Source: a virus
Virus record (IMG/VR): IMGVR_UViG_3300047548_001285
Span: 1-41,894 of that record
DNA: 41,894 nucleotides
Direction: 5' to 3' (one strand)
Shown here piece after piece: positions 3,780-28,098 of this stretch. The notes under the pieces were generated by a model. The model searched no databases, had not been told where the DNA came from, and was given only the letters and a program-made list of their open reading frames with translations. How positions within the stretch are numbered: the stretch's first letter is position 1; the number at the start of each line of letters is the position of its first letter. A program made the position numbers and the translations under genes.

Positions 3780-3867
3780 AGTACAGTAGGAACAGAAGTG
3801 GCCTTGATGGTATGGCCTGCGGTTGCGGTTCCCCTGCGGGGCGAGGGTTCGATTCCCTCCTGTACTA
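3780..3867 (+). tRNA. tRNA-like sequence without CCA
   Basis: Acceptor AGTACAG pairs perfectly with CTGTACT, and the T-arm GAGGG/CCCTC with loop TTCGATT is canonical. CCCC-TGC-GGGG (3831-3841) would be a class II variable arm. No normal anticodon arm can be found. The 3' end reads ATAA instead of ACCA and is part of the late promoter of the next gene. Confidence 0.5.
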
Positions 3868-3873
3868 TAAATA
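3866..3873 (+). promoter_or_regulatory. T4-type late promoter, leaderless arrangement
   Basis: Exact TATAAATA ending four bases before the ATG of the radical SAM gene, so transcription should begin at or beside the start codon. It overlaps the last bases of the preceding tRNA-like sequence. Confidence 0.7.
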
Positions 3874-3877
3874 TTTT

Positions 3878-4690
3878 ATGCTTTTCATACCTCACGTTGA
3901 TTTTTACATCACGAATGTTTGTAATTTAACTTGTCGTGGTTGTAATAGATTTAATAATTTAGGACTAAAAGGATTTCAACGTTGGAGTGACCATGCAACT
4001 GAAATAGAGCATTGGGCTAAGCGTTTAACTTTTAATAAAATTACTATAATAGGTGGAGAACCAACACTTAATCCTGATTTGGAAAAGTGGTGCATTAATC
4101 TTCGCCGTCTATGGTCAAATACTGAAATATTGATACAATCAAACGGCACGTACAAAACATCTAGTCTTGATTTTTTTCAAGAGTATAATATAGGGTTTGC
4201 AGTAAGTGTGCATGATGAAGAAATGGTTTCTAATATTAAAAAAAATTGGAGCCAAGATACATTCTTAATAGGGGCAACAGTATTTCATCAAAATGCTTTA
4301 GTAGATCATAAAGATTTTTGGGGTGTACATACAAGCAATCCAAAAATAGCATTTGAAGCATGTAGCATGAAATACGACATTACATTCTTTAATGGCAAAT
4401 TATACAAATGCCCGGTAACAGCATTGTTGCCAGAAGTATATAAGCAAAAAGATTTGCGTTTGAATAAAAGACAGTTGGAGTTGATGATGAGATATACACC
4501 TCTTACTCCTTCATGTACGGACGAAGAATTACAAACATTTATTAGCCAGAGAGATACTCCAATTGCAAATTGCGAGTTTTGTCCAAGTAAGTTAAAATGG
4601 CATACCGCATTAGGTGAATTAAAAGAAAATTTACCTAAACCAAAATTTGAAAGATATAATGAAAAAACCAGCAGCAAAAAAGATAGTTAA
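3878..4690 (+). CDS. Radical SAM protein
   Basis: The 270-residue product has the radical SAM cluster motif CNLTCRGC (C15, C19, C22) close to its N-terminus and a GGEPTLNPD motif typical of the SAM-binding strand. Further Cys near residues 163, 177, 211 and 231-234 could bind an auxiliary cluster, as in SPASM/twitch enzymes. The substrate is unknown; peptide or nucleotide modification is possible. ATG at 3878 is chosen because the motif begins 15 residues later and a late promoter lies four bases upstream; an upstream in-frame ATG at 3812 falls inside tRNA-like sequence. One of four radical SAM genes in the window. Confidence 0.85.
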   Translation: MLFIPHVDFYITNVCNLTCRGCNRFNNLGLKGFQRWSDHATEIEHWAKRLTFNKITIIGGEPTLNPDLEKWCINLRRLWSNTEILIQSNGTYKTSSLDFFQEYNIGFAVSVHDEEMVSNIKKNWSQDTFLIGATVFHQNALVDHKDFWGVHTSNPKIAFEACSMKYDITFFNGKLYKCPVTALLPEVYKQKDLRLNKRQLELMMRYTPLTPSCTDEELQTFISQRDTPIANCEFCPSKLKWHTALGELKENLPKPKFERYNEKTSSKKDS

Positions 4691-5363: not shown

Positions 5364-5440
5364 GCACCGTTAGCTCAACTGGATAGAGCACGGGTCTACG
5401 AAACCTGAGGTTGGAGGTTCGAACCCTCTGCGGTGCACCA
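5364..5440 (+). tRNA. tRNA-Arg(ACG)
   Basis: Acceptor GCACCGT pairs with GCGGTGC, discriminator A, encoded CCA, anticodon ACG at 5398-5400. A34 is normally deaminated to inosine by TadA, presumably the host enzyme. Confidence 0.94.
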
Positions 5441-5446
5441 AATTAT

Positions 5447-5522
5447 GGCTCCTTAGTCGAGTGGTCAAGACGCTGGCCTGTCACGCCGGAAATCACGGGT
5501 TCGAACCCCGTAGGAGTCGCCA
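5447..5522 (+). tRNA. tRNA-Asp(GTC)
   Basis: Acceptor GGCTCCT pairs with AGGAGTC, discriminator G as usual for Asp, encoded CCA, anticodon GTC at 5480-5482. Confidence 0.94.
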
Positions 5523-8527: not shown

Positions 8528-8612
<85 letters not shown>

Positions 8613-8615
8613 AAC

Positions 8616-8692
8616 GCCCTTGTAGCTCAGTGGATAAGAGCTTTGCGCTTCGAACGCAACGGTCGGGAGTTCGAATCTCTCCAAGGGCTCCA
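8616..8692 (+). tRNA. tRNA-Arg(TCG)
   Basis: Acceptor GCCCTTG pairs with CAAGGGC, encoded CCA, anticodon TCG at 8650-8652. The discriminator is T, uncommon for Arg. Confidence 0.92.
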
Positions 8693-8723
8693 TTAAAAAT
8701 AAAACAGATTACCAAAATAATAA

Positions 8724-8751
8724 TTGCAAATAAAATAAAAGACTGTATATT
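8724..8751 (+). promoter_or_regulatory. Sigma-70-type promoter of the giant RNA
   Basis: TTGCAA and TATATT separated by 16 bases in an AT-rich stretch. The predicted start is near 8758, just before the first stem of the giant RNA. Confidence 0.65.
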
Positions 8752-9256
8752 AAGAAAATAGACGCTGTAGCAAAAACGCAAGTTAAAGCAACAGCGCAGA
8801 GTTTGGGGGTTTAGCCTCGTTAGGATAAGCACAGCGATGTGCCCAAAGCTGCAAAGCCTACATAGCAGCGCATAGCAATATGTCCATCTAAACAAGCCTG
8901 AGTTAAGTTTACACGGGGTGAAATTCCCCTAAGGTAAACTCCGCCCGTAGGAAGGCGGTAAGCAGTAAGTTACTGCTATATGTCCGAAAGGATAAGTCTG
9001 GAGCCGATCGGTGAGGACGAATTGGGTTGGCGCCCAAGCATGTAGCACGCCAAAGTAACGAGTGCTTAATACTAACAGGTAGGTACCTAGTCAGACTGTT
9101 CGCGCAGAAAGGCAAAGTACCATTGCAAGAGTTGGAGGTGAAAGCCCGAGACTTAAAGCAATGCTTAGTAGCCCGCAAGGCAAAAGGCGAGAGGGTGTGT
9201 TGTATTTCTTATCTAACAAGATAGGAAGCGACTGGAGCAGCACATCACAGTAGGTT

Positions 9257-9328
9257 GCAAACATAGCTCATTTGGTAGAGCAATCGCATTTCAAGCGATC
9301 GGTAGTTGGTTCGATTCCAATTGTTGAT
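9257..9328 (+). tRNA. tRNA-Glu(TTC)-like domain inside the giant RNA
   Basis: D-arm GCTC/GAGC, anticodon stem ATCGC/GCGAT with loop ATTTCAA (TTC at 9290-9292) and T-arm GTTGG/CCAAT are all present. The acceptor has only four good pairs and no CCA. Instead, TTGCAA 9255-9260 can pair with TTGCAA 9338-9343, and GGAGCAG 9234-9240 with CTGCTCC 9347-9353, placing the domain on a long helix of the host RNA. Confidence 0.7.
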
Positions 9329-9683
9329 TATACAAAATTGCAAAGACTGCTCCGGTTGAATGTGTAAGGTGTCAAATGCTTAGGCCGCAAGGTAACTAAG
9401 CCTAACGAAACCCGCAAGGTCTAGTTAGTTCATGAAGGAAGTTTCGTAACCTCTTAGCGGAGGTGAATAGCTCGCAAGGCTAACGGGATAGATAGCGTGG
9501 AGTAGCATTCAACGACGAGTCTAATGCCTGACTCTAAAAACGGCGACACTGCTAGGATACTTGTTCACAAATGGCCTCCGTGCCCGGAACGAGTGGATGT
9601 CGGATTAAGCTAACTCGCAAGGTTAGGTCGTACGGTCCGAAGACTTAGCACTGTATGGGTAATCTCACCATACGCTAAAACAA

Positions 9684-9706
9684 AGGCGCTTAGTGCGCCT
9701 TTTTTA
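9684..9706 (+). terminator. Rho-independent terminator of the giant RNA
   Basis: AGGCGC 9684-9689 pairs with GCGCCT 9695-9700 around a five-base loop, followed by T to 9705. A GTATGG/CCATAC hairpin lies just upstream. Confidence 0.9.
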
Positions 9707-9721
9707 GTCTATAATTACAAT

Positions 9722-10810
9722 ATGAGCAACTTTTATTGTCCTAGAATAAAGAATGGTATTGCATTTACTCCTAACCGTGATTATGATGTATGCGGAGTAA
9801 GAGACCTCAATAACTCTAGCAAGCTAGGTATTAGTTCTACTAGTTTAAATGATTTCTTATCTAGCGACTATCGCAAAAATCTACTAGAGACTGCTAACAA
9901 AGGCGAATGGCCAAAAGGCTGCGAGGGCTGTTTTTGGTTAGAGAATATTTCTTTACAAAGCCCTCGCCAACAAGAGATTGCTTTAGAAAAACAAAACGGT
10001 ACACGGCCTTTAGTCCACTTTAATAGTGGATCTATCTGTGATAGCGATTGCATTATGTGTGGTCCAAGATGGAGCACTAGCATTGCTAACAGACTAAAAA
10101 AGCATCCTGCACCAAGCGATTCATATTTTACGCTGGGCAATGATGGTATAGATTTACCATCTGATAAAACTTCCCTTGAAAATTTAAAAAACGCTATTGC
10201 TATTTCCAAAAGATTAAAGGTAGTTGGGGGCGAACCTCTACTCGACAAAAAGCTATGGAAATTCTTAGACGAAGTTACGCAAGACAATAATAACTTTGAG
10301 TTTATCATTTCATCAAATGGTAACAACTATCCAAGCAAATACCAACTTGGTATCTTACAAAAGTTTGCCAAGGTCAATTTTATTTTTAGTATTGATGGCA
10401 CTGGTCCAACGTTTGAATGGATTAGACAAAACTTAAATTACAAAGCAGTAATCAAACACTATTTAAAAATAAAAGCATTAAGCAACGTAACATGTCATGT
10501 GACTGCGGTAGTACAAGCACACAATGTATTAAACTTAAAAAGCATGATGGATAGTTTTAAAACTAATATTGGTTTTAATATGCTAACACACCCTGCACTC
10601 CTATCAATTAGAAATGCCCCAAGATGGACGCTTGAACGGGCATTAGAAGAAACAAAAGGTCACTCTGATCTACAAACAATGTTAATGCTTTCACTCAAAG
10701 CAGGACCAACACATGATTTAGAAAGTTTGATTAAGCATACTAAGTATCTAAACGGGCATAGAACTCACTATTTTGACACAGACACTTGGAGTGTCCAAAA
10801 AAAGTCTTGA
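9722..10810 (+). CDS. Radical SAM protein, twitch-type
   Basis: The 362-residue product has the cluster motif ICDSDCIMCG (C106, C110, C113), a VVGGEPLLDKKLW SAM-binding segment near 205-217 and IDGT near 265. An N-terminal Cys pair (CEGC, 67-70) followed by SPRQQE matches the twitch-domain radical SAM family often annotated in marine T4-like phages; a similar protein lies at 27127. The substrate is unknown. TATAAT ends six bases before the ATG, so the message may be leaderless. It directly follows the giant RNA terminator. Confidence 0.82.
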   Translation: MSNFYCPRIKNGIAFTPNRDYDVCGVRDLNNSSKLGISSTSLNDFLSSDYRKNLLETANKGEWPKGCEGCFWLENISLQSPRQQEIALEKQNGTRPLVHFNSGSICDSDCIMCGPRWSTSIANRLKKHPAPSDSYFTLGNDGIDLPSDKTSLENLKNAIAISKRLKVVGGEPLLDKKLWKFLDEVTQDNNNFEFIISSNGNNYPSKYQLGILQKFAKVNFIFSIDGTGPTFEWIRQNLNYKAVIKHYLKIKALSNVTCHVTAVVQAHNVLNLKSMMDSFKTNIGFNMLTHPALLSIRNAPRWTLERALEETKGHSDLQTMLMLSLKAGPTHDLESLIKHTKYLNGHRTHYFDTDTWSVQKKS

Positions 10811-18588: not shown

Positions 18589-19710
18589 TTGCGTATTGAA
18601 AATGATTTAAAGTTAGACTTCTCTGATGTACTAATACGTCCAAAGAGGTCGACACTAGCAAGTCGCAGCGAAGTAAGCTTAGAGCGAGAGTTTACATTCC
18701 GTAACAGCAAACAAACTTACAAAGGCATTCCAATTATGGCTGCTAACATGGATGGTGTTGGTACATTCACTATTGCTGAGGTATTAGCAAACTATGGAAT
18801 GTTTACTTGCTTAGTTAAGCACTATCCAATTGATGATCTAGTAGAATGGATCTATACTATTGGTGGGAAAGATTGTGAAAATTGGGCATACAGTCTTGGT
18901 ATTACTGAATCAGATCTTGAAAAGTTCTTTAGTGTGTATAAGCGCACACTGGATGAAGATCATGTTAACAGGTCAATCAAATACGTGTGCATCGACGTAG
19001 CAAATGGTTACAGCGAACGATTTGTAGACTTTATTAAGAGATTTAGGGATCTTTACCCTGAGCTCGTATTAATTGCTGGTAACGTTGTCACTGGCGAAAT
19101 GACAGAGGAATTAATCTTAAATGGTGTCGATATTGTTAAAGTGGGCATTGGACCTGGATCAGTATGTACAACAAGGATTAAAACTGGGGTTGGGTATCCA
19201 CAACTATCTGCTATTATTGAGTGTGCTGATGCTGCTCATGGGCTTGCTGGCCACATTATTGCTGACGGTGGCTGTACTAGTCCTGGAGATGTAGCAAAGG
19301 CTTTTGGGGCAGGAGCAGACTTTGTTATGCTAGGTGGTATGCTTGCCGGTCATAAAGAAGGCGGCGGCAACATTACCAAGAAAATGTACCAAACAAATGA
19401 ACTTGATGAACACGGGTATCATATTAACAAGGAAGAAATGTTTGTTAAGTTCTATGGAATGAGTTCTCAAGCTGCAAATGAAAAGCATTTTGGTGGACTA
19501 AAGGATTATCGTGCAAGTGAAGGGCGCGAAGTTCTAATTCCTTTTAGGGGAAGTATAGAAAATACTGTACAAGACTTACTTGGTGGATTGCGTTCTTCTT
19601 GTACATATGTTGGTGCAAGTAAATTAAAAGAATTAAGTAAGCGCACAACATTTATTCGGGTGAATAACACTCATAATAAAGTTTATGAGAGCAAAACAAC
19701 AAGGATTTAA
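18589..19710 (+). CDS. guaC: GMP reductase
   Basis: The 373-residue protein follows the IMPDH/GMPR barrel. It opens [17 protein letters not shown], has the active-site loop [11 protein letters not shown] with its catalytic Cys, [19 protein letters not shown], the phosphate-binding DGGC and GGMLAGH segments, YRASEGREV and [17 protein letters not shown] rather than IMPDH is indicated by the missing CBS domains and by these sequences. It converts GMP to IMP with NADPH, feeding purine salvage. TTG at 18589 follows CAGGAAAA and gives the expected N-terminus. It is rare in phages; host takeover of guanine nucleotide pools is inferred. Confidence 0.92.
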
Positions 19711-27126: not shown

Positions 27127-28098
27127 ATGTCGTCTGATAAACTAAAATTCAATAACCCGTTTTGTTCTTATCCATTTTTACATCAGCACTTAGATACAAG
27201 AAAACAATCTAAGCTTTGCTGTTTTTCAGAAACGGATATGCAAAGCGGGTTTAATTTTAACTCTAACGAATACAAAGAAGTTAGAGATATGATGCTTAAT
27301 GGTGATTGGTCAGTCCATTGCCAAGGATGCCAATCTTTAGAGCAACGCAAGCTAATAAGTCCTAGACAAAAAGCATTGCGTGACGAGAATACAGAATTGC
27401 TACAGCATCAAGTGGATAAGCATCTAGCAGGGGAACTGTTAGACCCATATCAGTATGACTTGCGTATTAGCAATCTATGCAATCTAGCTTGCATAATGTG
27501 TGGTCCAAAAAGCAGTTCAACAATTGCAAAGAACTTAGGTATAGATAATGAATTTTTATCCTATGAGCCCGATGTGTATATCAATCCTAAAGCCAATTAT
27601 ATGTATCTAGCAGGCGGGGAACCATTTTTAATCAAAAAGTTTTCTGCGCTGCTTAATAAGATTGAAAACACTAATTGCAAAGTTGTTATCAACACAAATG
27701 GAACTATAGTTACAGATCATTTGATGAAAGCATTAGAACGCTTTCATAACGTTAACATGACTGTTAGCATTGACGGTTATATGGACTTAAACAGTAAAAT
27801 TAGGATTGGTAGTAATTGGGAAGCTATAGATAAAAATTTAATCATTTTTAAAGATGCGGGTTTTTCATTACACATTAATACTGTTGTTCAAAAAGACAAC
27901 ATTAATGAACTATTTGAATTAGGAACATTTTTAGAAACTGTGCCTATCAACAAATGGACACTATCTGAACTTACTGTTCCAGAAGAACTTAGATACATAC
28001 AAAACATTAATAAGGAAAGAGTAGAAAGGTTAATGACGTTAAATTTAGTCAAAACAAATCCAGAAACAATCTATCTGCTAAATAGTATACTAAAATGA
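27127..28098 (+). CDS. Radical SAM protein, twitch-type
   Basis: The 323-residue product has the cluster motif [10 protein letters not shown] (C118, C122, C125), [13 protein letters not shown] and [10 protein letters not shown]-terminal Cys pairs (KLCCF; CQGC 65-68) precede [11 protein letters not shown]. It matches the gene at 9722 in layout, so the two are paralogues. A CTAAATA late element ends six bases before the ATG. Its last codon overlaps the IF-1 start, so the two may be made together. Substrate unknown. Confidence 0.82.

Follow-up and report, generated by a model that had tools for sequence, protein, structure and literature searches.

The stretch at 8758-9706 of a phage contig raises two questions, namely which RNA it encodes and what the variable linker inside that RNA is for. 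The window, by which we mean the whole 41,894-base IMG/VR virus contig that was analysed, also encodes a T4 gp9/10-like baseplate protein, and a preliminary description of it had placed a giant RNA of the GOLLD or ROOL type at this position. When the whole window was compared with Rfam 15, GOLLD (RF02032) was matched at 175.7 bits (E 7e-48), above the gathering score of 150 bits and throughout the 416-position model (1-416), and no other family competed for the match. The GOLLD part of the earlier assignment was thereby confirmed by the covariance model. ROOL is excluded, because RF02032 matches without a rival family, and it gave no match even at E<=5 in a permissive Rfam scan of 8690-9730, in which nothing credible appeared besides GOLLD and the tRNA family. 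According to the GOLLD literature, the Rfam model is limited to the conserved 3' domain. For the 5' half, ROOL and other Rfam families were considered and rejected, since they gave only sub-threshold chance matches.

The remainder of the RNA was assessed by homology and covariation. The total length exceeds 800 nt, and a less conserved 5' domain, beginning with a hairpin at about 8762-8797, lies upstream of the 3' domain, as is characteristic of GOLLD. Downstream of about 8800 and up to its 3' terminus, the RNA matches many relatives at 64-69% identity over 750-980 positions, and the nearest relative, L023, shows 86% identity with homology from 8712. Every column pair in an alignment of 86 non-redundant full-length sequences from viral contigs was scored for covariation by APC-corrected G statistics, with custom scripts rather than R-scape. 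All of the 50 strongest column pairs in this alignment and 95 of the strongest 100 were canonical, as compared with 10% of random column pairs (background 0.10). The covarying helices cover both domains, and some of those in the 3' domain cross each other (9357-9362/9506-9511 and 9369-9373/9545-9549). Since full-length homologues and covarying helices both extend over it, the 5' half is, as judged from this conservation, a genuine part of the GOLLD RNA. The dense hairpins and GNRA loops noticed earlier were borne out as well: the folding of 8758-9706 is better than that of dinucleotide shuffles (z -2.96, equalled by 0 of 20), and at least five hairpins with GCAA loops of the GNRA type have covarying stems, for example at 9172/9180, 9385/9392, 9411/9419, 9471/9479 and 9614/9622. 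The setting is AT-rich as described, with 37% G+C in the whole window and 47% in the RNA.

We found no conserved open reading frame across the interval, the frames being kept in 6, 20 and 26 of the 86 homologues, and a coding gene inside it, which the preliminary description had named as evidence against its proposal, was rejected. The other readings of the interval, as a ROOL RNA, an mRNA leader or an unstructured stretch between genes, are ruled out by the Rfam scans and the covariation, and the lack of a conserved frame also speaks against them. The promoter-like site is no better than chance as a bare consensus (3 sites as compared with 1.9 expected), but L023 has exactly the same block around it, at about 8715-8770, as compared with about 84-86% identity over the RNA itself. 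An 8-bp terminator stem followed by Ts is present as claimed. As a family trait the terminator was rejected: it was found in 9 of 86 homologues and in 10 of 258 random stretches, which means that a clean terminator is not a general feature of GOLLD. Almost certainly, the interval is a phage gene for a GOLLD RNA of about 950 nt and is served by a promoter and a terminator of its own.

Features of the window and permuted linkers of relatives (positions are those of the window unless a locus is named)
Feature	Position	Strand	Basis or remark
GOLLD RNA gene	8758-9706	+	about 950 nt
5' domain of GOLLD RNA, beyond the Rfam model	8758-9193	+	homology; covariation at 8807-9188
Conserved 3' domain of GOLLD RNA	9194-9671	+	RF02032 match; covarying helices, some crossing
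Variable linker of the 3' domain	9250-9345	+	counterpart in env-38 lies inside the cage; closing pairs 9235-9237/9350-9352 covary
Acceptor-clipped tRNA-like domain, tRNA-Glu(TTC)	9257-9329	+	ARAGORN, Rfam
Promoter-like site TTGCAA-16-TATATT	8724-8751	+	consensus scan; block identical in L023
Intrinsic terminator, 8-bp stem (9682-9702) and T run	9682-9707	+	sequence scan
Upstream neighbours tRNA-Leu(GAG) and tRNA-Arg(TCG)	8528-8692	+	encoded CCA in both
Permuted tRNA linkers of relatives	L041:7592-7720; L100:4744-4870; replicate in L283, about 5365-5486, reverse strand

The phage setting and the tRNA neighbours agree with the preliminary description, as two tRNA genes lie directly upstream, and the window encodes 26 tRNA genes other than the linker element together with its own tRNA nucleotidyltransferase. 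A weak tRNA-Tyr-like element (2115-2188, 30.8 bits), the sole other tRNA without an encoded CCA, adjoins the gene of this enzyme (2260-2946). Three different radical SAM proteins are encoded at 3812-4690, 9722-10810 and 27127-28098, one of them directly downstream of GOLLD, and a GMP reductase-like gene at 18589-19707 is 40-58% identical to copies in large Caulobacter, Xanthomonas and Stenotrophomonas phages, with a copy in the same range in a Salmonella-linked record.

The linker of the 3' domain was found to contain an element that was absent from the preliminary description. Both ARAGORN and Rfam (RF00005, 51.2 bits) call it a tRNA, and its cloverleaf possesses the D, anticodon and T arms with the elbow contacts. 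Of the acceptor stem only the four inner pairs form; C2/A71 and A3/G70 are mismatched, and an outermost G-T pair is possible. It also lacks the CCA that is encoded by 25 of the 26 other tRNAs in the window. An ordinary, functional tRNA was therefore rejected for this element, which has neither a 7-bp acceptor nor CCA; relatives show the same lack.

Relatives were collected by DNA patterns built from conserved GOLLD words. Among the 65 records retrieved by the first two patterns, 40 gave a Rfam GOLLD match, 36 of them above the cut-off; a search of genome contigs gave 105 hits, of which a smaller part was inspected singly, and 138 GOLLD 3' domains emerged when the retrieved loci were all searched with a profile. 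A GOLLD from Thalassospira (L286, 190.3 bits) also has a tRNA-like linker, and a GOLLD hit from the order of Amycolatopsis and L244 (L287, 144.5 bits, just below the cut-off) has a tRNA-like linker without CCA. GOLLDs of this kind are carried by the laboratory phages CcrMagneto of Caulobacter and MD18 of Phaeobacter. Close phage relatives in GenBank gave partial matches only (DSS3_MAL1, Phosso and Caulobacter phages), and an Erwinia phage was discarded, because its match is to a tRNA only and no GOLLD turned up in that record. A pattern built on the Rfam consensus retrieved chance hits only, the search via the adjoining radical SAM gene yielded one distant locus without GOLLD, and GOLLD was not found in the sampled Bacilli genomes, where the very few candidates scored per genome do not establish absence. 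On the contig of L069 (about 1829-1944 and 2351-2812), a second, partial match to the GOLLD 3' domain (49 bits) lies about 400 bases upstream of a complete GOLLD, and is perhaps a decayed or duplicated copy.

From these loci 135 linkers were extracted, of which 109 were unique. The cloverleaf was fitted on the D, anticodon and T arms with the acceptor left out; a small weight was given to the T-loop and GG motifs, and none to 15:48, 13:46, positions 33 and 37 and the acceptor pairs. An acceptor-clipped cloverleaf in canonical order was found in 98 of the 109 unique linkers, and the fit took in one misfit besides, the permuted L041; this figure of about 90% applies to one broad group of phage GOLLDs, since the relatives were found by the sequence words of that group. 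In the 98 linkers, the inner acceptor pairs 7:66, 6:67, 5:68 and 4:69 form in 97, 89, 93 and 92%, with compensatory types at 4:69 (GC 36, CG 26, AT 17, TA 6). For the outer pairs 3:70, 2:71 and 1:72 the frequencies are 52, 30 and 51%, as compared with 44, 32 and 46% expected from composition. In a shuffling test on 48 representatives below 80% identity, the inner pairs 4:69 to 7:66, the tested arm pairs and the elbow pair 15:48 all reached p<=0.0002; the value for 3:70 was 0.0048, and 1:72 (0.15) and 2:71 (0.69) were unsupported. The outer pairs serve here as an internal control, because they share their phylogeny with the inner ones. CCA follows 2 of the 98 linkers, in contrast to 1191 of 1228 free-standing tRNAs at the same loci. 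Unlike nearly all others, one of the two contains a complete tRNA with a 7-bp acceptor (L082:12363-12432), and the acceptor of the other, L094, is nearly complete. The tertiary signatures are preserved, namely T8-A14, G18/G19 with T55/C56, and T54-A58, and 15:48 and 13:46 covary. Among the anticodon loops of seven bases, U33 is present in 82 of 86 and a purine at position 37 in the same number; roughly one loop in ten is longer, with 8-9 bases.

Two divergent phage GOLLDs, L041 and L100, were found to carry a circularly permuted tRNA in the linker instead. The T arm, the 3' acceptor strand and ACCA come first, followed by a short loop and then the 5' acceptor strand, the D arm and the anticodon arm. 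Both acceptors are perfect 7-bp stems with double changes between the two at 5:68, 6:67 and 7:66, and when the halves were restored to normal order, ARAGORN recognised a cloverleaf with a full acceptor in both. Their host GOLLDs score above the Rfam cut-off (188.5 and 198.8 bits), and the two bodies are 57% identical and are not sisters on the tree. The permuted tRNA appears to be tied to GOLLD via the variable arm rather than the acceptor; the clipped and the permuted arrangements both keep the elbow and the anticodon arm, and both tether the tRNA to the GOLLD RNA. A two-piece (permuted) tmRNA lies within a few kilobases of GOLLD in the phages L008, L009, L031 and L100/L283.

The complete tRNA of L082, the intact acceptors with ACCA of the permuted linkers and the nucleotidyltransferase of the phage would suit a GOLLD that carries a functional tRNA, or is its precursor, with the tRNA excised for use in translation. 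We consider this very unlikely, as the outer acceptor pairs are close to random in the clipped linkers, 96 of 98 lack CCA and about one in ten has an enlarged anticodon loop; moreover, the internal pseudo-tRNA of a Mycobacterium GOLLD was not seen as a separate RNA on northern blots (PMC6582537).

The structure of the env-38 GOLLD, a hollow RNA cage of 14 copies solved by cryo-EM, shows the position of the linker, which has 42 nt there (497-538), is disordered and lies inside the cage (PMC12286853). By homology with env-38, the RNA described here would assemble into a hollow homo-oligomeric cage, and we regard it as very probable that the window GOLLD does so. The linker would project into the lumen as in env-38, with the shortened acceptor stem as the root of the tRNA module. 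Given a clipped acceptor and the lack of CCA, the host tRNA-processing machinery would neither excise nor charge the module, and the clipping observed here makes it likely that the cage displays inside it about 14 uncut, uncharged and non-functional tRNA mimics. During infection, the mimic may capture inside the particle a factor that recognises the elbow or the anticodon arm; a host nuclease that targets tRNAs, or an enzyme that modifies them, would be an example. Capture of a tRNA-recognising factor appears to be the most likely use of the module, although we put it forward tentatively. A point against the proposal is that large factors might not reach a mimic enclosed in a cage. In the available parts of PMC10264068 and PMC11555353, tRNA-targeting defences are described as common enemies of phages, and phage tRNAs as a means of countering tRNA-cleaving defences. 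A somewhat doubtful extension is that GOLLD cages, by virtue of the many mimics inside them, trap or sense host factors that recognise tRNAs, anticodon nucleases for instance; the clipped acceptor, or alternatively circular permutation, would then be the adaptation by which a tRNA retains its shape and is yet tied to the cage. For the proposal as a whole, a GOLLD cage with an unprocessable tRNA mimic in its lumen that captures a tRNA-recognising factor, we see the balance as about even.

Other features of the linker bear on whether the module does anything at all. On a GOLLD tree from which the linker was left out, at least 40 anticodon changes are needed to account for 75 rows, which means that the decoding identity is not preserved; the TTC anticodon of the window already differs from the 8-base loop of its sister L023. 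Seven of the 109 linkers (L026, L043, L051, L113, L124, L136 and L139) have shrunk to a single plain hairpin or a pair of them, some of these linkers resembling a D arm and an anticodon arm without the T arm, and the linkers of the Rfam consensus and of env-38 are shorter with no tRNA visible. These reduced linkers, together with the 42-nt linker of env-38, suggest that the mimic is dispensable in some members. L059, L069 and L070 carry an identical linker on different bodies, which indicates that the tRNA-like module can move. The linker cores resemble one another (median 0.91) more than they resemble any of 1025 free tRNAs (median 0.79, none >=0.9), which shows that most of them were not captured recently. 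Taken together, the sequence comparisons show a tRNA shape under selection, an anticodon identity that is free and an acceptor tip that is missing in about 90% of the sampled relatives.

The free drift of the anticodon, the replacement of the tRNA by simple hairpins, the exchange of linkers between bodies and a linker length that is steady at about 85-100 nt would all fit an inert, self-folding spacer, derived from tRNA genes of the phage array that were caught long ago. Such a compact, nuclease-resistant module would be retained since it is harmless to cage assembly, and its acceptor would be clipped so that RNase P and 3' processing cannot split GOLLD. Against this reading, U33, purine 37, 15:48 and the contacts between T loop and D loop have been maintained across such divergence, which a spacer would not require. 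We nevertheless treat the passive spacer as the main rival, nearly as likely as factor capture and to be entertained with the same reserve.

The preserved U33 and purine 37 are also consistent with a mimic that docks GOLLD on ribosomes or translation factors via its anticodon arm, so that ribosomes are sheltered or stalled late in infection, and GOLLD was bound by ribosomes in pull-downs that are cited in PMC12286853. The linker faces the lumen in the cage solved in that study, and the anticodon identity is not preserved; we therefore regard docking as improbable. The function of GOLLD has been a puzzle from the time it was discovered, and nothing but the linker occupies the interior of the solved cage. 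If the linker is usually a conserved clipped mimic, the search for a partner narrows to factors recognising the elbow or the anticodon arm, experiments in which linkers are swapped would be decisive, and a new kind of tRNA mimicry would be added, with permuted tRNAs placed in a phage non-coding RNA.

Judged against the papers compared here, systematic clipping of the acceptor seems to be unreported. That a GOLLD linker can contain a tRNA is already known, as Kretsch et al. note that this is sometimes so and a pseudo-tRNA was reported in Mycobacterium. Our literature search for a tRNA-like GOLLD domain found nothing relevant. The GOLLD of the Maub type strain of Mycobacterium resembles the present one in its tRNA cluster and internal pseudo-tRNA; it belongs to a different phylum, and the available part of PMC6582537 uses the term pseudo tRNA and describes no conserved clipped acceptor. 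With RF02032, of which Weinberg 2009 is the original paper, the window RNA shares the sequence and structure of the 3' domain, the phage and tRNA-array setting and a variable linker in the 3' domain; a rise in expression during lysis by the phage is a further trait of that family. Env-38 has the same two domains (420 and 413 nt, as compared with about 436 and 478 nt here, the 5' domains being compared by layout), but in place of its short disordered linker the window has one of about 95 nt with a tRNA-shaped domain, known here from sequence. ROOL is likewise a large phage or prophage RNA with tRNAs close by, and it too builds a hollow cage whose linker lies inside (PMC12286853), but it differs in sequence and fold. 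In the permuted tRNA genes of algae and archaea the 3' half precedes the 5' half, as in L041 and L100, whose copies differ in lying within another RNA; the window has none, and a literature search found no record of permuted tRNAs in phages. The closest functional parallel is YrlA, a bacterial Y RNA and, like GOLLD, a modular non-coding RNA with a tRNA-shaped domain that does not decode; the YrlA domain binds PNPase (PMC8394870), a partner binding that is YrlA's own. YrlA mimics the D, T and acceptor arms, whereas in the GOLLD module the acceptor tip is lost and the anticodon arm is kept along with the D and T arms. A mimic of the YrlA type was rejected on this ground and because the GOLLD body is unrelated, so that the likeness is one of analogy only; YrlA with PNPase would nevertheless be a precedent for the principle that a tRNA-like domain captures a partner.
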